Program-made: the position numbers and the translations under genes
Assembly (NCBI RefSeq): GCF_001927245.1
Contig: NZ_MJUX01000008.1
Span: 1 to 64,000 of the forward strand
DNA: 64,000 nucleotides
Reading direction: 5' to 3'
From: Acuticoccus yangtzensis
GTDB lineage: Bacteria; Pseudomonadota; Alphaproteobacteria; Rhizobiales; Amorphaceae
The notes under the pieces: generated by a model
Seen by the model: the letters and a program-made list of their open reading frames with translations, nothing else
Databases searched by the model: none
What the model was told of the DNA's origin: nothing
Shown here: in pieces, positions 4,600 to 64,000 of the stretch
How the letters are laid out: the number at the start of each line of letters is the position of its first letter
Position numbering within the stretch: the first letter of the stretch is position 1

Positions 4600-4643
4600 A
4601 ACCGGACGCGGTCTGTGGCCGCGCCACCGCCCGACAGCGCGTT

Positions 4644-4662
4644 GCGCCCTCGGGCGCGTTTT
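4644..4662 (+). terminator. Terminator-like hairpin between promoter and ffh
   Basis: GCGCC (4644-4648) pairs with GGCGC (4653-4657) around CTCG and is followed by GTTTT. It lies downstream of the promoter-like pair and about 85 bases upstream of the ffh ATG. It could end a short RNA starting near 4606 or act as an attenuator of the ffh operon. Confidence 0.35.
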
Positions 4663-4745
4663 GCGTTGCTTGATGGGCTGGACGGGTGCAACCCTCCATC
4701 CTTCATCGCGGGATCATCCTGCGAACACGTCACCGGGAGCCGCCC

Positions 4746-21879: not shown

Positions 21880-22608
21880 ATGAAAGACGTGACGGGCCGG
21901 ATCGGCCTTGCGCTGGCCGTTCTGGCGGCGACGGCTGTCCCGGCATTTGGCAACATGGTCGAGATCGTCGACCCCAATACGGGCGAAATCATTCGCTATC
22001 GCCCCTCCTTCGCCAAGGAGGCGGCCCCGGAGCGGCCCACCTACCGCTACTTCGACCCCAGCACCGGCGGTTATGGGACCTACCAGGCCTCCCGCGAGGA
22101 GATGGCCGAGCGGCACCGCATGAAATATGCGCGCGCCCATGTGCGCTTCGTCTCCGGCGAGCCTGCGGGAACCATCGTGGTGGATACGCTGTCGCGCTAC
22201 CTCTACCACCTCAACGCGGATGGGACGGCGACGCGCTACGGCATCGGCGTCGGCCGCGAAGGCTTCACGTGGACGGGCATCGAGACGGTGTCGCGCAAGC
22301 GTGAGTGGCCGGACTGGACGCCGCCCGCCGAGATGCTGGAGCGCCGGTCCGACATCCCGGAATACATGCCCGGCGGGCCGAACAATCCGCTGGGTGCGCG
22401 CGCACTTTACCTGGGGTCGACGCTCTACCGCATCCACGGGACCAACGAGGACGAGTCGATCGGCTACGCGGTGTCCTCCGGCTGTATCCGCATGCTGAAC
22501 GAGGACGTGGTGGACCTATATAACCGCACCGAGATCGGCACGCGGGTGATCGTGTTGGGTCCGCAGGCGGACAGGTCCGGGCTGCTGGCGGCCATCAGCG
22601 GGTTCTGA
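21880..22608 (+). CDS. L,D-transpeptidase (YkuD domain)
   Basis: Periplasmic enzyme that makes 3-3 peptidoglycan crosslinks or attaches proteins to peptidoglycan. The 242-residue precursor has a signal peptide (1-24, cleavage near AFG-N) and a YkuD domain (about 97-232) with His186 in YRIHGTNE and nucleophile Cys202 in SSGCIRMLNEDV. A short N-terminal region contains EIVDPNTGEIIRY, common to rhizobial family members. A strong AGGGAGG precedes the ATG. Divergent from the hydrolase gene. The first copy of the dispersed repeat element begins eight bases after its stop codon. Confidence 0.94.
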   Translation: MKDVTGRIGLALAVLAATAVPAFGNMVEIVDPNTGEIIRYRPSFAKEAAPERPTYRYFDPSTGGYGTYQASREEMAERHRMKYARAHVRFVSGEPAGTIVVDTLSRYLYHLNADGTATRYGIGVGREGFTWTGIETVSRKREWPDWTPPAEMLERRSDIPEYMPGGPNNPLGARALYLGSTLYRIHGTNEDESIGYAVSSGCIRMLNEDVVDLYNRTEIGTRVIVLGPQADRSGLLAAISGF

Positions 22609-22615
22609 GCGGGCG

Positions 22616-22820
22616 GCGGGTAGCAGGGGCCTCCGGCGGGCTCCACCTCACCAACGATCAGGGCCCGCCTGATCGCCGTAACCGCCATCGCCCCTGCACC
22701 GCATGGCAGACCCGGCGGCACCTCGCCAAGGACAAGCGGCTGAAGCCGGCCTTCGGCTCCTTGGCAAGGCACCACCGGGCCCGCCAAGGGATTGGTGCGA
22801 CGCCGGCTCCAGCGATCAGG
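22616..22820 (+). repeat. Dispersed structured element, copy 1
   Basis: A 205 bp intergenic element also present, inverted, at 60741-60954. Shared blocks in order: GCGGGTAG (22616-22623), CCTCCGGCGGGCTC, CGATCAGG-loop-CCTGATCG (22655-22662 with 22668-22675), a hairpin with arms GCCAAGGA (22725-22732) and TCCTTGGC (22758-22765) enclosing CGGC/GCCG (22737-22740, 22745-22748), GCACCAC, and the terminal GGCTCCAGCGATCAGG (ending 22820). This copy also has a second GCCAAGG (22783-22789) that could pair with the same TCCTTGGC arm, and GCACCA/TGGTGC (22769-22774, 22793-22798). It fills the gap between convergent genes. No open frame is shared, so it is not a coding remnant. Confidence 0.75.
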
Positions 22821-22861
22821 CTCCGACAGGCCGATACGCGGCGAATGCGTAACTGGACCGC

Positions 22862-23710
22862 TCAGCGATAGATCATGATCGGCACCAGACACGAGCGCAC
22901 CAGCGCCGTGGTGGCCGAGCCGATGAGAAGATGGCGCACGCGCGAATGGCCGTGGCTGCCCATCACCAGAAGGTCGGCCGCCCCGTCGTCGACCGCCGCG
23001 GCGATCACCGCCTCCGGCTCGCCGGGTTCGATGTCCGCGGTGGCGCTGAGGCCGGAGGCCAGCAGCGTGTCACGCGCCCGCTCCAGCCTTTCGCGGGCGG
23101 CGGGCGTGCCGTCGCCCACCGTCAGAAGGCGGACGGCGAGACCCTTGTAGAGCGGGTCGGCGGCGACGGCCTTCACCGCACGGCCGCTCGACGCGCTGCC
23201 GTCGAACGCGAGCACCACCTTCTCCACCGGACGGAAAGCGCGCGAGGCGACGAGAACGGGCGTCTCCGCCGCGCGCAGCACGCGCTCGATGTTGGAGCCG
23301 AGGTGCATGGTGGCGAAATCCGCCGCCTCGCCGCGCTTGCCGATCACGAGGAGGTCGAAGTCGCCCTGCACGGTGCCGACCTCGCCCAGAAGATCGCCGA
23401 TGCGCATGCGGGTGTTTGCACTCACCCCGGCGGCCGCCAGATGTTCCGCCGCCGCCTCCAGGATAGCGCGGCCGCGGCTCTGGGCGAGCTTGCCGCGCGC
23501 CTCGTCCATCGCCGCCAGTTCGGAAAGGAGGGTCGAGCGGGCGCCGAGCGACAGGCTGCCGGAAAGGTTCGCCGGGGTGCTTCCCGTCTCGCGCCGGCCG
23601 ATGACGTGCATCAGCTCCAGCGCGGCGCCGGTGCGGCCGGCGGCCCAGGCGGCGTGATCGCACACGCTCGCGGTGTAGATCGAACCGTCGATCAGCGCCA
23701 TGATGCGCAT
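22862..23710 (-). CDS. Tandem universal stress protein (two UspA domains)
   Basis: Cytoplasmic protein of 282 residues with two UspA domains. The second (about 150-282) has the complete ATP-binding signature G-2X-G-9X-GS in MGSHGHSRVRHLLIGS; the first has GKRG...HLGS with a ten-residue spacer. USPs bind nucleotides and modulate stress and energy responses. The start at MRIMALIDGS is supported by GGGAGGG five bases away; an upstream ATG 66 bases earlier lacks a good site. It follows the SulP transporter gene on the same strand by 91 bp, a pairing seen with SulP bicarbonate/sulfate transporters, so joint regulation is plausible. Confidence 0.92.
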   Translation of the reverse strand: MRIMALIDGSIYTASVCDHAAWAAGRTGAALELMHVIGRRETGSTPANLSGSLSLGARSTLLSELAAMDEARGKLAQSRGRAILEAAAEHLAAAGVSANTRMRIGDLLGEVGTVQGDFDLLVIGKRGEAADFATMHLGSNIERVLRAAETPVLVASRAFRPVEKVVLAFDGSASSGRAVKAVAADPLYKGLAVRLLTVGDGTPAARERLERARDTLLASGLSATADIEPGEPEAVIAAAVDDGAADLLVMGSHGHSRVRHLLIGSATTALVRSCLVPIMIYR

Positions 23711-23801
23711 GGTCCCTCCCGCGGGGTTCTTCTTGTCATTGGGCATAATGGTCGGCCCTCCGGGGCGTCTGTGCAAGCGGCACGGTCGTCGGGTGCCCGG
23801 C

Positions 23802-27836: not shown

Positions 27837-28098
27837 GGGCAACTCCTTTGGCGGCCCGTCGCGCTGGGGGCCACCGCCTCTACTCGATCTTTATATATCA
27901 AAACTAAGGCCGCACGATGATCCTGAAGTTGTTTCAACCTGCCCAGCGGTGAGCGCATGGACGATGAGCGGTGGACGGTGCGCGCTGCCTTCCGCCCGAC
28001 AGACCCGCGGATCCCGGCGACGGAGCACCGGCACACGCTTTGTCCCAAAGTGAGGCTTGCGCGAACTCCGAACCAGGCGTATGTGCGGCGGCGGGACA

Positions 28099-28135
28099 CC
28101 CTTCCCCAACGAAGGGCGCCTATCTGAGAGGATAG
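28099..28135 (+). ncRNA. serC leader RNA motif (two adjacent hairpins)
   Basis: Just before serC are two hairpins: CCCTT/AAGGG (28099-28103, 28112-28116) and CTATC/GATAG (28120-28124, 28131-28135). The loop and 3' arm of the second contain the ribosome binding site GAGAGGA (28126-28132), six or seven bases before the ATG, so folding would hide it. This matches the layout of the serC motif described for alphaproteobacteria (paired hairpins at the serC start, ligand unproven). I recognise the architecture; I could not score it against the family model. Confidence 0.55.
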
Positions 28136-28141
28136 CTACAA

Positions 28142-59108: not shown

Positions 59109-60452
59109 ATGACCGACAGCGTGACCGCGTCCGACGTCGCATCGCTGGCGAGCGGCCATGACGATCCGCTGATCTTCCAGCGCATCCTGTCCTCGATGCG
59201 CGACGGCGTCATCTCCATCGGGCTCGAGGGTGAGATCATCACCTTCAACGAGGCGGCCGGGCGCATTCTCGGCAAGGACCCGGCGGAGGTTCTGGGCCAG
59301 CCATTCGCCGAGGTTTTCCTGCTGGACGAAGCGTTCGACGCCTTCAACGAGGTCGTCTTCAAGGCGGTCTACGAGGCGGAGCTGACCCATTCGGTCGAGG
59401 TCATGCTGGAGCGGGACGGCGAGGTGCTGGACCTCATGGTGTCGTCCAGCCTTCTGACGCGCGAGGACGGGGGCGAGAAGCGGCGGCTCGGCGTCGTCGT
59501 GGTGGTGACCGACATCACCGAGGAGCGCAAGCGGCGCAAAATCAAGGCGCTGTTCGGCGCCTACGTGGACCCGCGCATCGTCGAGCGCATCCTGACGAGT
59601 TCGGAGGCCGAGCGGTCGCGGCGCGAGGACATGACGATCTCGTTCGTCGACATGCGCGACTTCACCGGCTGGTCGGAACGTCTGGCGCCGCGCCAGCTCG
59701 TCGACCTGCTCAACCGCTTCCTGGGCGCGGTGACGGAGCCGGTGGCGGCGTCCGGCGGGATCACCGACAAATATATCGGCGATTCGGCGATGGCGGTGTG
59801 GGGTGCGCCGTTCACCGACCCGGCAACGCAGGCGCGCGACGCGTGCAACGCTGCGCTCGGCCAGATCGCCGCGCTGGCCCCGCTGCGGGCGGCGCTGGCG
59901 ACGGACGGCATCCCCGGCGCCGAGCGGCTGGACGCGGTGGTGGGGATCGCCACGGGCGACGTGTTGTCGGGCGACATCGGCCCGCTGGCGAGCCGCAACT
60001 ACACCGTCATCGGCAATGCGGTGAACTTCGCGGCGCGTCTGCAGGAGGCGGCGAAGATGTACGGCCAGCCGATCCTCCTCACGGCGGAGACGGCGGCGCT
60101 GGCGGGCGAGGCGATGGTGACGCGCGAGATCGACCGCATCACGGTCCGCGGGAGCGACACGCCGGTGACGGTGCACGCCCTTCTCGGCCGCGCCGGCGAG
60201 GTGGATGCGCAGCGGATCGACTTCGCGGCGCGTTATCAGGACGCCATCGCCGCGCTCAGGCTGCGGGACTGGGACCGTGCCGAGGCGGGGCTCACCGCGC
60301 TCATCACCGAAGCGCCGGACGACATTCCGGTGCGGCTGATGCTGGCGCGTCTCACAGCGCTCGCAGCCGACCCTCCCGGCGAGGACTGGGACGGCGTGTG
60401 GCGCGGCGCCTCCCGCGCCTCCGCCGCCGGCCCCGCCAAGTCGATGCGCTGA
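59109..60452 (+). CDS. PAS-domain class III adenylate/guanylate cyclase
   Basis: Cyclic-nucleotide synthase of 447 residues. The N-terminal PAS domain (about 25-135, GEIITFNEAAGRILG and VVVTDITEERKR) precedes the cyclase domain (about 165-350). Metal-binding aspartates are Asp181 in FVDMRDFTGW and Asp225 in ITDKYIGDSAMAVWG; Lys221 is in the same segment; the transition-state region is YTVIGNAVNFAARLQ. All are consistent with activity, most likely producing cAMP. A C-terminal helical segment (about 365-430, TPR-like) follows. Soluble; the PAS ligand is unknown. Convergent with the SpoIIE gene. Confidence 0.92.
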   Translation: MTDSVTASDVASLASGHDDPLIFQRILSSMRDGVISIGLEGEIITFNEAAGRILGKDPAEVLGQPFAEVFLLDEAFDAFNEVVFKAVYEAELTHSVEVMLERDGEVLDLMVSSSLLTREDGGEKRRLGVVVVVTDITEERKRRKIKALFGAYVDPRIVERILTSSEAERSRREDMTISFVDMRDFTGWSERLAPRQLVDLLNRFLGAVTEPVAASGGITDKYIGDSAMAVWGAPFTDPATQARDACNAALGQIAALAPLRAALATDGIPGAERLDAVVGIATGDVLSGDIGPLASRNYTVIGNAVNFAARLQEAAKMYGQPILLTAETAALAGEAMVTREIDRITVRGSDTPVTVHALLGRAGEVDAQRIDFAARYQDAIAALRLRDWDRAEAGLTALITEAPDDIPVRLMLARLTALAADPPGEDWDGVWRGASRASAAGPAKSMR

Positions 60453-60946
60453 GGGGGGCGCGGCGCCCATCACGACGGCCCCTTGCCCGCCCCGCCCGCT
60501 CCGCTTCACGCTCGACCCGTCAACCACTCACGCCACTTGCCGCCAGCCCGTGCACCCTTGCGAGACACCCACGCCTGATTGCGAGGCGCCCGCGCCCGGC
60601 TGCAAAGCGCCTACGCCCCGCAGCGACAGGCCATGCGCCCCATCCGCGACCCGCACACGCCGCGTTACCACCCGCATACGCCCCATTGCGCCCCTCCCAC
60701 GCCCTGTTGCGAGGCGCTCACGCATCTCGGGCCCGCGCTGCCTGATCGCTGGAGCCGTCCGTCGCGCAAATTCTGGGGCCGGGCCGTGGTGCGCCGTCAA
60801 GGAGCCGGAGGCCCGCTTTAGCGGCTTGTCCTTGACGGGGCGCCGCGGCTCGGCCACGGGATGCAGCGTGACGGGCGGAACCGGCGATCAGGCCATCCCC
60901 CCTGATCGCTGGTGGGTCCCGAGCCCGCCGGAGGCTGCAGCGGTCC
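60453..60946. other. Convergent gap filled by repeats
   Basis: 494 bases between convergent genes contain no gene. About 210 bp are the 21 bp array (60528-60737) and the rest of the right half is copy 2 of the dispersed element (60741-60954). The left 75 bases show no feature. Confidence 0.6.
60528..60737. repeat. Degenerate 21-22 bp tandem array
   Basis: About ten units of 21-22 bp. Best preserved are CACGCCTGATTGCGAGGCGC (60570-60589) and CACGCCCTGTTGCGAGGCGC (60698-60717), differing at about three of 20 bases; other units share CACGCC or ACGCCCC at the start and GCGA or GCGC later, with a drift of two bases across the array. Both strands read as seven-residue repeats (e.g. PTPDCEA), but with stop codons and no ribosome binding site, so I do not call a gene. 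It ends three bases before copy 2 of the dispersed element. Confidence 0.6.
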
Positions 60947-60954
60947 CTACCCGC
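60741..60954 (-). repeat. Dispersed structured element, copy 2
   Basis: The 214 bp counterpart of 22616-22820, inverted. Its GCGGGTAG start (complement of 60947-60954) includes the stop codon TAG of the SpoIIE gene. Hairpin arms: CGATCAGG (60885-60892) with CCTGATCG (60901-60908), and GTCAAGGA (60796-60803) with TCCTTGAC (60829-60836) enclosing CCGC/GCGG (60813-60816, 60821-60824). The end GGCTCCAGCGATCAGG is shared in full. In both copies the element points away from the gene whose stop it abuts, so orientation relative to that gene is conserved. Confidence 0.75.
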
Positions 60955-63064
60955 GACCCGTGAACCGGAGCGTGACGCAGGTGAGGTCGTCGGCGCGTTC
61001 GGCCTCGCCCTCGAAGGCGATGACGGCGTCGCGCACCACGGCGTTGAGGTCCTGGTTGTGCCCGGCCCCGGCGGCGACGGCCTGGAGGCGCGCGTCGCCG
61101 AAGGCTTCCTCCGAGGCGTTGAAGGCCTCGGTCACGCCGTCGGTGAACATGAAGAGCCGCGTTCCGGGAGCGAGGCGGCAGGTCATCTCCTCGAACTCCA
61201 GCCCCTCGATGACGGCGAGGGCGGGGTCGCGCGCGGCGGGAAGCTCGGCCACGGTTCCGGGCTCGGGGCCGAGAAGCAGCGGCGGATTATGGCCCGCATT
61301 GGCGTAGCGCATCTCGGACGTTTCGAGGTCGATGATGCCGTGGAACAGCGTCACGAACATCATCTGGTCGTTCTCTGCGGCGAGGAAGTCGTTGACGTCG
61401 CGCAGGGTTTCGGCGGGCGCGGTCCCGGTGAGGGCCGTCGCCTTGATGAGCGTGCGGGTGATCGCCATGAAGAGCGCGGCGGCGACACCCTTGCCCGACA
61501 CGTCGGCGACGACGACTCCGAGGTGGCGCTCGTCGACCATGAAGAAGTCGAAGAAGTCGCCGCCGACCTCCTTGGCGGGCTCCATGAAGCCTTCGACGGT
61601 GAAGGCGGGGTGCGGCGGCAGAGGCTTGGGCAGGAAGGAGAGCTGCAATTCGCGCGCGATCTCCAGCTCCTGCTCCAGACCGGCGAGGCGGGCACGGGTG
61701 ATGATCGCGGCCTGAAGCTCGGCGATCAGCTCCGTCAGGCGCTGGTGCTGGGCGGAGATGCGGTGCGACATGCGCGACAGCACCTCGGTGAGCATCTGCA
61801 GCTCTTCGTTGGGGCGGGCGGCGGCCCCGGCGGCGGGGACGGGCTCCACCGCGGCGGGCGCGTCGGGGTCGGAGATGATGGCGCGCAGGTCCGCCTGGAT
61901 CGCTTGTTGGCCTTCGGGGTCGAGCGTCCCGGCGAGGCGTTCGAGCTGGCGTTTGATGACGCGCTCCTGGCGGCGGCGCTGGCGGGCGATGCGCTCCTCC
62001 TGCTCCACCAGGCGCAGCGCGTTGCCGCGGAACACCAGAAGCGCCTCGCCGATGCGGCGGATCTCGCCCGACCCGCCGATGGTGGGGAGTTCGTTGAGGT
62101 CGCCTTTGGACAGCGCGCTGAGGGTGCCGATCGCAGTCTCGAGCGGGGCGAAGGCGCGGCGCAGGAAGACGTAGAGCGCGCCGATGAGCACGAGACCGGC
62201 GACGGCGATGGCGGCGATACCGGTCTGCTCCAGGCCGCGGCTCGCCGACAGGCTCAGCGTCGCGTCCCGCAGGGTGACGAGCTGCCCGGCGGGCGGGCCG
62301 CCGAGGTCGGGCACGGGGACGCCCGCGGCGAAATAGAGCCGGTCACCGAGGGCGATGATCTCGGCATCGGCGGTGCGGTGCGGCAGAGCGGGGTCGGCGG
62401 CGTCGTAGAGGGCGGGGTCGGTGCCGGTCACCATGCGGCCGCGCAGGGAGACGAGGTAGCTCGGCTCGCCGAGGCGGGTGCTGAGGTCTTCCAGCACGGT
62501 CAAAGCATCGACCATCAGCGCGACGATGACGGGCGGGCCGCTGCCGCGCGCGGCGACGCTGCTGCCGACGACGACGTAGCGCGTGGACGTCTCCTGCCGC
62601 AGTCCGCCGGGTGCGCCGGCTTCGGCGGGATCGGTCCCGGCGGTGCCAGAGGCCACCGCGTCGCCCAGTTCCTGCATCGCGGCGAGTTCGGTCGGGCCGA
62701 AGATGGGGCGCGTGCGGAAGGTCGGCACGTTGGAGGCGAGGATGTCGCCGTCGATGGAGAGGAGCTGCACCGTTTCGCCGCCGGTGAGGAGGTCGGCGGA
62801 TTCGGCGACCACCTTCTCCATCGCGTCGGCGGCGGCGGAGGGGGCGCTGCTGACGCGCAAGGCGAAGAGGTCGGCCTGAGCGCTGAGATCCTCGGCACGG
62901 TCGGCGACGAGACTTTCCCAAAGCGATTGCTGCCCGGCGATGGCGATGTCGGCGAGCTGCGCCTCGGTCTGGCGGGTGCGCAGGGATCCGAGGGCGATGA
63001 GGGCGGCCACCATCAGCACCAGCGCCAAGGAGAGGAGAAGGGTGATGCGGTTGCGCAGGAGCAT
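60947..63064 (-). CDS. SpoIIE-type PP2C serine phosphatase with HAMP and membrane sensor
   Basis: Membrane-bound PPM phosphatase of 705 residues. N-terminal signal-anchor (about 8-28), a periplasmic sensor region (about 30-285), a second span (about 290-312), a HAMP-like region (about 312-365), an extended coiled-coil, then a SpoIIE-like phosphatase domain (about 515-705) with EVGGDFFDFF (metal site), VVVADVSGKGVAAALFM, GRNPPLLL-like AGHNPPLLL, and FMFTDGVTEAFN. Such proteins dephosphorylate anti-sigma antagonists in partner-switching or act in other signalling. ATG 63064 abuts the MFS gene stop in the form TGATG; a second ATG at 63076 is possible. Its stop lies inside copy 2 of the element. 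Confidence 0.9.
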   Translation of the reverse strand: MLLRNRITLLLSLALVLMVAALIALGSLRTRQTEAQLADIAIAGQQSLWESLVADRAEDLSAQADLFALRVSSAPSAAADAMEKVVAESADLLTGGETVQLLSIDGDILASNVPTFRTRPIFGPTELAAMQELGDAVASGTAGTDPAEAGAPGGLRQETSTRYVVVGSSVAARGSGPPVIVALMVDALTVLEDLSTRLGEPSYLVSLRGRMVTGTDPALYDAADPALPHRTADAEIIALGDRLYFAAGVPVPDLGGPPAGQLVTLRDATLSLSASRGLEQTGIAAIAVAGLVLIGALYVFLRRAFAPLETAIGTLSALSKGDLNELPTIGGSGEIRRIGEALLVFRGNALRLVEQEERIARQRRRQERVIKRQLERLAGTLDPEGQQAIQADLRAIISDPDAPAAVEPVPAAGAAARPNEELQMLTEVLSRMSHRISAQHQRLTELIAELQAAIITRARLAGLEQELEIARELQLSFLPKPLPPHPAFTVEGFMEPAKEVGGDFFDFFMVDERHLGVVVADVSGKGVAAALFMAITRTLIKATALTGTAPAETLRDVNDFLAAENDQMMFVTLFHGIIDLETSEMRYANAGHNPPLLLGPEPGTVAELPAARDPALAVIEGLEFEEMTCRLAPGTRLFMFTDGVTEAFNASEEAFGDARLQAVAAGAGHNQDLNAVVRDAVIAFEGEAERADDLTCVTLRFTGRG

Positions 63065-64000
63065 CAGCGGGCCCATCCCAGCGCGTGGGTGACGGCGGCC
63101 AGGACGGCGAGGCCCGCCAGCGCGGTTGCCGCGATGGCGGCGAGGGCGAGGCCCGCCCCCGGCTGAACCATGTCGGCCGCATGGAGGGCGCCCGCCGCCA
63201 CCCCGCCGACGCCGATGGCGATGGCCGAAGACGGCACGAAGGCGCGTGCGCCGAGCGCGAAGGCGACGATCCCGAACCCCAGCCCGGCGAGCACGCTGAC
63301 CGCCGGTTGCAGCACATCGACGCCGACTGCCGCGGCGGCGGGAACGAGCCCGGCCCCGGCGAGAACGGCGGCCGCGGCGACGAGGCCCCCGGCCGGCGCG
63401 GGCAGCCGCCAGCGCAGCAGCACCGGCACGAAGGAGGCCGCCCCGGCGAGGCCGAAGTTCAGCGCCATCTCGGCATAGCGTTCGCGCAGGACGGTGCCCG
63501 CCAGGGAGACATCGGCCCAGGCGAAGAGGGCGAGGCTGGCGGCAAGAAGGGCCAGAACGTCGGCAGGGGAGAGGCGCAGGGCGGGCGGCACCGGCCTGCG
63601 GCGCTGTGGCAAACGCGGCGCCCCCGCGGTGGACGCGACGGCGAGCAGCGCGGCCAGCACCCCCAGCGTGGCGAAGGCGGCCCGGCGCCCTTCCGCCTCG
63701 GCGAGCAGGCCGCCGATCATCGGCCCCGCGGCGGCGGCGCCGAGCAGCACGATGGCCCCGCGCCACGGCAGGCGCCGTCCGGCCCCCTCAGTCGCCAGCA
63801 CCGACCACACCGCGAACCAGCCGCAGAAGGCTGCGAAGGTGACGGTGGCGGTGAACACCCGGTAGTCGCGGATGACGTAGACGGCGGCGTAGGCGGCCGC
63901 GGCCATCAGCATGGCGGCGAAGGTCGCGGGCTTGGACCAGCGCCCCGCCAGGAGCGCGGCGAGGATCACGCCGAGGATCGCGCCAATCGTCTCGGCGGTG
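63064..64000 (-). CDS. MFS transporter, 5' end beyond the window
   Basis: Major facilitator-type membrane protein; the 3' 312 codons are inside the window and the reading frame runs off the right edge without a stop. About ten hydrophobic segments are visible, e.g. KPATFAAMLMAAAAYAAVYVI, TVTFAAFCGWFAVWSVL and GAIVLLGAAAAGPMIGG, and a central charged loop (RRRPVPPALRL). The MFS half-repeat loop pattern is present, but no diagnostic family motif allows a substrate call. Its stop (TGA, 63064-63066) overlaps the ATG of the SpoIIE gene by one base, so the two are probably cotranscribed. Confidence 0.8.
   Translation of the reverse strand, partial: TAETIGAILGVILAALLAGRWSKPATFAAMLMAAAAYAAVYVIRDYRVFTATVTFAAFCGWFAVWSVLATEGAGRRLPWRGAIVLLGAAAAGPMIGGLLAEAEGRRAAFATLGVLAALLAVASTAGAPRLPQRRRPVPPALRLSPADVLALLAASLALFAWADVSLAGTVLRERYAEMALNFGLAGAASFVPVLLRWRLPAPAGGLVAAAAVLAGAGLVPAAAAVGVDVLQPAVSVLAGLGFGIVAFALGARAFVPSSAIAIGVGGVAAGALHAADMVQPGAGLALAAIAATALAGLAVLAAVTHALGWAR

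Follow-up and report, generated by a model that had tools for sequence, protein, structure and literature searches.

A dispersed intergenic repeat at gene ends in Acuticoccus yangtzensis, folding on the strand antisense to the adjacent gene

The two window copies and their neighbouring genes

The window analysed here is the whole stretch of 64,000 nucleotides from contig NZ_MJUX01000008.1 of Acuticoccus yangtzensis, and it contains two copies of a repeat in opposite orientations, as was originally predicted. Copy 1 lies past the stop codon of an L,D-transpeptidase gene (YkuD; 21880..22608, + strand), whose stop faces the 3' end of the putative element RNA, and a convergent gene for a universal stress protein (22862..23776, − strand) lies on its other side. 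Copy 2 is placed past the stop codon of a SpoIIE phosphatase gene (60947..63766, − strand), which likewise faces the RNA 3' end and whose TAG lies within GCGGGTAG; on the other side runs a convergent PAS/nucleotide cyclase gene (59109..60452, + strand). These four window genes were compared with Pfam, and the gene context named in the original prediction was confirmed.

We describe the element on the strand that folds, which is the reverse of the strand of the original description, i.e. the − strand for copy 1 and the + strand for copy 2. The structured core, which in copy 1 extends from block C' to the GAGCCC tail, occupies 22638..22821 (−) in copy 1 and 60740..60926 (+) in copy 2; both copies match our covariance model R1 over its positions 1-182, with scores of 147.9 and 138.2 bits, respectively. 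Copy 1 begins with block C' (CCTGATCG; 22813..22820, −), the 5' arm of the foot helix. Block B' (CGATCAGG; 22668..22675, −) can pair either with C' or with its alternative partner, block A' (again CCTGATCG; 22655..22662, −). By sequence, the equivalent blocks of copy 2 are C' at 60741..60748, B' at 60885..60892 and A' at 60901..60908 (all +). A branched hairpin tip is located at 22727..22763 (−) in copy 1, where it reads CAAGG...CCTTG, and at 60798..60834 (+) in copy 2; its stem and small hairpins are conserved in the alignments A2 and A3 described below. The 3' end carries a conserved block, CCTCCGGCGGGCTC on the original strand, which was placed by 14-mer matches at 22630..22643 (−) and 60921..60934 (+). 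This 14-mer has 21 exact matches in the A. yangtzensis genome, 20 of them inside element copies, and the remaining one (L124) was read as coding sequence.

The two copies had been described as sharing six anchor blocks within about 205-214 bp. In an alignment of 22 copies (A1, which omits L024, L027 and L028 with a nested second repeat and the remnants L032 and L033) the columns of GCGGGTAG were unconserved, so it does not belong to the element and is probably shared by the two window copies through coincidence; the other anchors proved to be real. The length had been underestimated, since many copies run about 35 bp beyond GGCTCCAGCGATCAGG. Recent copies in the Acuticoccus genome G005 point to a length of roughly 255 bp; their ends, read on the folded strand, lie near CCCTCGCGCGGCGCC and GAGGCTCCGGC (nine copies aligned with their flanks), and we place the unit length at roughly 240-255 bp. 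Conserved sequence reaches past the inverted repeats on both sides. We also considered a nested origin, with an inner element inserted within an outer repeat, and rejected it, as no solo outer repeat with the exact 14-mer was found in the A. yangtzensis genome.

Copies in A. yangtzensis and other genomes

The genome of A. yangtzensis, a marine bacterium (5.04 Mb; 5,043,263 bases in 29 contigs), was searched by blastn with copy 1 as the query. Copy 2 was recovered with 76% identity and an E-value of 5.2e-29, and it was one of 27 further places matching at 75-93% identity, three of them partial; four additional matches were opposite-strand echoes of the palindrome. We then used R1, a model of 182 positions for which only Acuticoccus copies, 48 in number, were used. 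At E<=0.01 it gave 69 matches, which were merged into at least 41 copies and 28 opposite-strand echoes. The copy number is a lower bound from the best 150 of 11,041 first-look candidates scored by R1, and it excludes a partial tandem copy adjoining L016. Twenty-five of these copies belong to family I, the type of the window pair, and 16 to a diverged family II. It is clear that the repeat is not confined to the two window copies. Among the flanking regions that we viewed, the translations corresponded to different genes.

Several additional features of these copies were noticed. On the 1,392,722-base contig C12 of G000, all ten copies found by R1 lie within the first 0.73 Mb, and the last 0.67 Mb is without any. 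In three A. yangtzensis loci a second repeat of about 60-75 bp, with two small palindromes (AAGTCCGC..GCGGACTT and GAACTGCGC..GCGCAGTTC), abuts the element, adjoining block A in L027 and L028 and block C in L024. Five family II copies on contigs C1, C7 and C8 of A. yangtzensis (L166, L167, L171, L174 and L175) form a mutually similar subset in which GCGTCACAGG is conserved upstream and CCCGAGC is followed by a T-rich 3' end; in some of them this end resembles a terminator on the folded strand.

Within the genus, R1 matched six of the eight Acuticoccus genomes, and no match was obtained in G002 and G007. A blastn search over 40 relatives gave matches in four other Acuticoccus genomes (G001, G003, G005 and G006) and a single 35-bp match (E 7e-4) in G038, which belongs to another family. 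A further 40 genomes sampled from the order gave no match when stricter filters were applied and at most the best 65 candidates per genome were scored; class-wide, one of 240 genomes matched, A. yangtzensis itself, a result that says little with the best 11 candidates per genome. A pattern scan of the genome collection returned 21 stretches, found in Mameliella, Chachezhania and two metagenome-assembled genomes (MAGs), together with the loci L047, L051 and L060. The loci in the MAG Co_bin.305 are the same as those of G006, and the element of an uncultured Rhodobacteraceae MAG is that of G001. With echoes included, R1 gave 20 matches in Mameliella sp. CS4, 7 in M. alba, 7 in M. sediminis and 19 in Chachezhania antarctica, and one weak match of 51 bits (L060) in Parvularcula lutaonensis. 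We did not accept L047, from Spirochaetales, as a member because it was read as coding, nor L051, which matches only model positions 41-111. A relative was found on one Acuticoccus plasmid with a Mameliella query, the plasmid search with the A. yangtzensis query gave no match, and viral carriage was dismissed, there being no pattern match in viral contigs. Relatives of A. yangtzensis in Acuticoccus, Mameliella and Chachezhania thus carry copies, and the carriers span three orders, Hyphomicrobiales, Rhodobacterales and Parvularculales. This patchy occurrence suggests horizontal transfer.

The proposal that the repeat is a dispersed, mobile-looking element was borne out by the at least 41 copies, by recent similar copies in unrelated flanks and by differences in site occupancy. 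On contig C12 of G005 (109,544 bases) ten copies are 93-100% identical in their cores, and in nine of them, aligned with their flanks, the outside sequence is unrelated; judged from these alignments, the copies represent a recent spread. The density of copies on this contig of a 7.8-Mb genome is far above that seen elsewhere among the matches listed. When sites were aligned between genomes, an element present in Mameliella sp. CS4 was missing in M. alba, one present in G003 was missing in G000 and G005, and one present in G000 was missing in G003. A further M. alba site held only half an element, and at other aligned sites several copies were kept between Mameliella species. No clean empty site was seen among the aligned filled and unfilled sites, and at the unfilled M. 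alba site adjoining repeat sequence is still present, along with unrelated bases. Some absences may therefore be deletions, since the M. alba sites retain repeat sequence or half an element. Inspection by eye of the nine recent G005 copies and the aligned sites gave no target-site duplication, with the exact ends of the element being fuzzy.

We also looked for enzymes that could move the element. Y1_Tnp (PF01797) was found neither in A. yangtzensis nor in the eight Acuticoccus genomes, with the control positive in five of 14 genomes. RVT_1 (PF00078) was likewise absent from the eight Acuticoccus genomes, including G005 with its recent copies, with the control positive in three of 14. As far as PF01797 and PF00078 detect them, the mover is thus neither a Y1 transposase nor a reverse transcriptase.

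The folded strand and its three matching blocks

Each copy is predicted to fold into an imperfect hairpin of about 180 nt with a branched tip. The fold was examined in two alignments: A2, with 48 distinct Acuticoccus copies (omitting, in addition to the copies left out of A1, identical copies and L080), and A3, with 38 distinct Mameliella and Chachezhania copies and fitted to the model structure. Two-sided changes occurred at 28 of 61 pairs in A2, in 269 cells versus 90.6 in shuffled alignments, and 95.7% of the cells were paired versus 86.4% when shuffled and at most 47.9% when slid. The corresponding values for A3 were 49 of 61 pairs, 388 cells versus 130.7, and 91.4% paired versus 73.7% shuffled and at most 50.3% slid.

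The strand can be told from the kinds of pairs, because positions that form G-U pairs on one strand face each other as A and C, a mismatch, on the opposite one. On the folded strand, G-U exceeded A-C by 252 to 34 in A2 (67 predicted pairs) and by 119 to 20 in A3; a structure predicted for the original strand instead gave 54 G-U versus 186 A-C on it. Each of the 87 rows in A2 and A3 was more stable on the folded strand. Compared with 200 shuffles, the folded strand reached z-scores of −5.94 for copy 1 and −7.67 for copy 2. The original strand gave −3.34 for copy 2 and for copy 1 only −1.28, with 23 of 200 shuffles as good, so that folding of copy 1 on this strand did not stand out. From the G-U/A-C asymmetry, the row stabilities and the shuffle z-scores we conclude that selection saw the strand opposite to the original one, as RNA or possibly as single-stranded DNA, and that the fold is probably under selection.

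Part of the covariation may have another source. In six pairs of orthologous Mameliella sites (L058/L092, L052/L063, L097/L062, L086/L096, L090/L104 and L102/L112), 48 pair changes were double and kept the pair, 14 were single and kept it, and 50 pairs were broken in one partner. Because double changes outnumber single ones among the kept pairs and 50 pairs break, gene conversion between copies or template switching at the palindrome may create some of the compensatory changes; either process would leave the G-U asymmetry unexplained. Paired bases of the element diverge by 16-33% across the six site pairs, and in the three M. alba/CS4 pairs by 16-23% at aligned loci that are about 89-90% identical. 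By the counts of pair changes, the turnover of the element is fast and may include gene conversion.

Along the folded strand, C' forms the 5' foot, B' the 3' foot, and A' usually follows 3-9 nt further on. These are blocks of about 10 nt, A' being close to C' in sequence and B' complementary to both. Their letters vary among copies (CCTGATCG, CCTGACCG, CCTGTTCC and CCTGTTTTT; CCATCTCTG in Chachezhania), and the three-block match is held in most copies despite the change of letters; in M. sediminis and M. alba, several copies show only a poor match. Among 40 A. yangtzensis copies (L024 dropped), A' agreed with the C' of its own copy at 8.8 of 10 positions versus 6.78 when permuted (maximum 7.55 in 5000 permutations). 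The agreement was 8.96 versus 7.76 (maximum 8.58) in family I and 8.56 versus 6.94 (maximum 7.88) in family II. The block finder picked A' by its pairing with B', which inflates the likeness of A' to C', and the column test of B':A' in A2 is free of such a choice: 97.5% of the cells in this helix were paired versus 93.5% when shuffled (0 of 500 as high) and at most 64.6% when slid, and two-sided changes were present at four of ten pairs, with 5 of 500 shuffles as high.

The three-way match allows C':B' and B':A' as mutually exclusive alternative helices, and we infer an exchange between them. When the two 10-nt duplexes were compared in 107 copies (without L024, L060, L110 and one duplicate), C':B' was the stronger one in 98. 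Each window copy was predicted to fold with C':B' and without B':A'. Since C':B' is the stronger duplex in most copies, A':B' would need kinetic help or a protein partner.

The position of the copies relative to genes was determined from heuristic gene calls for 110 distinct copies, after removal of one duplicate (L043 = L094) from 111 rows. Relative to the folded strand, the neighbours were convergent in 63 copies, both antisense in 29, both sense in 10 and divergent in three, and in five one neighbour was uncalled. In 93 of the 110, the RNA 3' end points at the stop codon of a gene, which in 85 cases lies within 150 nt of the model end, so in these 93 the RNA is antisense to that gene. The excess of both-antisense over both-sense neighbours (29 versus 10) was significant (p=0.003), and it persisted without the ten copies of the recent G005 spread (26 versus 9, p=0.006). 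Of 25 A. yangtzensis copies, 15 had convergent neighbours (14 of 25 with cruder gene calls, which differed in detail), and a sense gene came next downstream in 14 of the 110. One suggestion had been that the repeat is a 3'-UTR RNA. Its position at gene 3' ends agrees with this; its strand does not, the folded strand being antisense to the gene in question.

A scan for a hairpin with a T-run near the RNA 3' end, made without a shuffle control, found the pattern in 9 of 16 family II copies; of the 25 copies in family I, 3 had it in the same uncontrolled scan, as did 32 of all 111 rows. On the original strand, a palindromic stretch precedes the element in seven copies of Mameliella sp. CS4 (L044, L050, L053, L055, L056, L061 and L062), and its hairpin and T-run could terminate the adjacent gene; again without a shuffle control, this pattern was seen on that strand in 9 of 10 CS4 rows and 21 of 111 rows overall. 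The palindromic, T-run stretch is also present without the element at L101 of M. alba.

Interpretation and comparison with known repeats

The element is dispersed in many copies, has spread recently in one relative and occurs patchily in three orders. Its strand-specific compensatory evolution accompanies the three-way match of C', B' and A'. We favour, with a probability of about 0.6, a short, non-autonomous mobile intergenic element that lies mostly downstream of stop codons and whose folded strand, antisense to the gene, is under selection for its fold. Such an element would settle mostly just past gene stop codons, where the strand antisense to that gene would fold into the long imperfect hairpin with the branched tip. 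The fold would act as RNA, with single-stranded DNA as the alternative, and some trans-acting protein would recognise it. Copies may survive best between convergent genes, either since they do least harm there or since they serve as a transcription boundary, and the competition of C':B' with B':A' may be a real switch during transcription or mobilisation. A bolder version, which we put forward tentatively, is that of a new class of mobile structured RNA. In this version a selfish, horizontally moving intergenic element would make an RNA that is a two-state switch. Each copy would carry a code of about 10 nt in triplicate, as C', as A' and, in complementary form, as B'; the three would stay matched inside a copy even as their letters are replaced from copy to copy and from genus to genus. 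Exchange of the two helices would be a step in mobilisation or transcript control, and no reverse transcriptase or Y1 transposase would take part.

One alternative is a classical MITE. It would be what internal deletion left of a DDE insertion sequence whose transposase would move it; C' and the B' arm would serve as its terminal inverted repeats, and the fold would be a by-product of these. The short palindromic unit with inverted repeats in many copies, its recent amplification and its patchy distribution all fit; however, conserved sequence extends beyond the inverted repeats, no target-site duplication was seen at the fuzzy ends, a by-product palindrome should lack the strand bias of G-U over A-C, and block A' would be without a role. 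We regard this origin as a minority possibility. It is rather improbable that the copies are instead domesticated RNAs, acting as transcription boundaries or terminator-like insulators between convergent genes and kept by selection at their sites rather than by mobility. The 63 convergent copies, those retained at aligned Mameliella sites and the T-run hairpins of 9 of 16 family II copies (in the scan without a shuffle control) speak for such a role. Against it, no neighbour transcribes the folded strand in the 29 copies with both neighbours antisense, the T-run pattern is limited to 3 of the 25 copies in family I and to 32 of the 111 rows overall, and some aligned sites are without the element.

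Spread by reverse transcription, as a group II intron fragment, a retron RNA or a SINE-like RNA, would fit the strand-specific RNA fold, and group IIC introns are known for their habit of using gene-end targets, which the element resembles. With no RVT_1 match in the eight Acuticoccus genomes and no Rfam match, we consider it very improbable. In Rfam, the window at the gathering threshold gave only serC and ffh, both elsewhere in the window, and a search of seven element loci at E<=1 gave three matches, all below their gathering scores, among them mir-1451 (E 0.75), which overlaps the element in L009. The two RNAs scoring above gathering are a serC leader (RF00517) at 28089-28140 and an ffh sRNA (RF01793) at 4621-4664. 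The REP-like origin contained in the original prediction, in the sense of a REP/BIME repeat moved by a Y1 (RAYT) transposase, agrees with an intergenic palindromic repeat near gene ends; it is contradicted by the lack of Y1_Tnp in A. yangtzensis and the eight Acuticoccus genomes and by a unit far longer than the 20-40 bp given for REPs in the part of the source consulted (PMC3733652), and we hold it to be the most improbable of all.

No publication in the literature searched, which covered few subscription papers, was recognised as describing the repeat. The arrangement of its blocks recalls riboswitch expression platforms, in which one stem strand is common to two exclusive helices. B' would be this common strand, with the outer C' and A' alike. 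Unlike a riboswitch, the element is not upstream of genes, a sense downstream gene being found in only 14 of the 110 copies.

For the small palindromic repeats already described, ERIC and YPAL among them, the relevance of the fold as RNA is usually open. The fold described here is supported by compensatory change in two bacterial groups, the G-U/A-C asymmetry reveals which strand is at work, and the three-way block leads to the concrete prediction, open to testing, of two helices that exclude each other. The cross-order distribution, with no Y1 transposase or reverse transcriptase detected, leaves the mover still to be found. The strand-asymmetry test can be applied to other families of palindromic repeats.

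The nearest kinds of repeat, by the parts of the published descriptions available to us, are YPAL/RU-2, ERIC and CIR. YPAL (RU-2) of Yersinia, of about 168 bp, is like our element a mobile repeat without TA termini, with internal inverted repeats and not A+T-rich; its targets span or adjoin dyad symmetry, and a comparison of empty with filled sites led to the inference that it moved recently (PMC2229807). Its insertions are flanked by target-site duplications of 3-26 bp, whereas none was seen for our element, the two being compared by description and not by sequence (PMC2229807). ERIC (IRU, RU-1) of enterobacteria, of 127 bp, shares the intergenic position and a predicted single long stem-loop, and its effect on the upstream transcript depends on its orientation (PMC2229807, PMC2267715); our element differs in that its hairpin is branched at the tip, a second helix excluding the first may form, and the working strand runs antisense to the neighbouring gene. 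CIRs, the CcrM-associated intergenic repeats, are also dispersed in intergenic regions of alphaproteobacteria with long inverted repeats, and consist of about 110 bp with a conserved GANTC and two arms joined by a linker (PMC2229807, PMC10969869). In contrast, our unit is about twice as long, has one main arm with a branched tip in a model of 182 positions, and contains any GANTC in only 24 of 110 copies, so membership in CIR was rejected on size and GANTC. We call the element a new family among the small palindromic intergenic repeats, set apart from these kinds by their descriptions. Judged from the sequences, its new feature relative to the descriptions compared would be the three-way block on the selected strand, which, like the strand-specific covariation, belongs to our element and does not appear in the part of the YPAL description consulted (PMC2229807).
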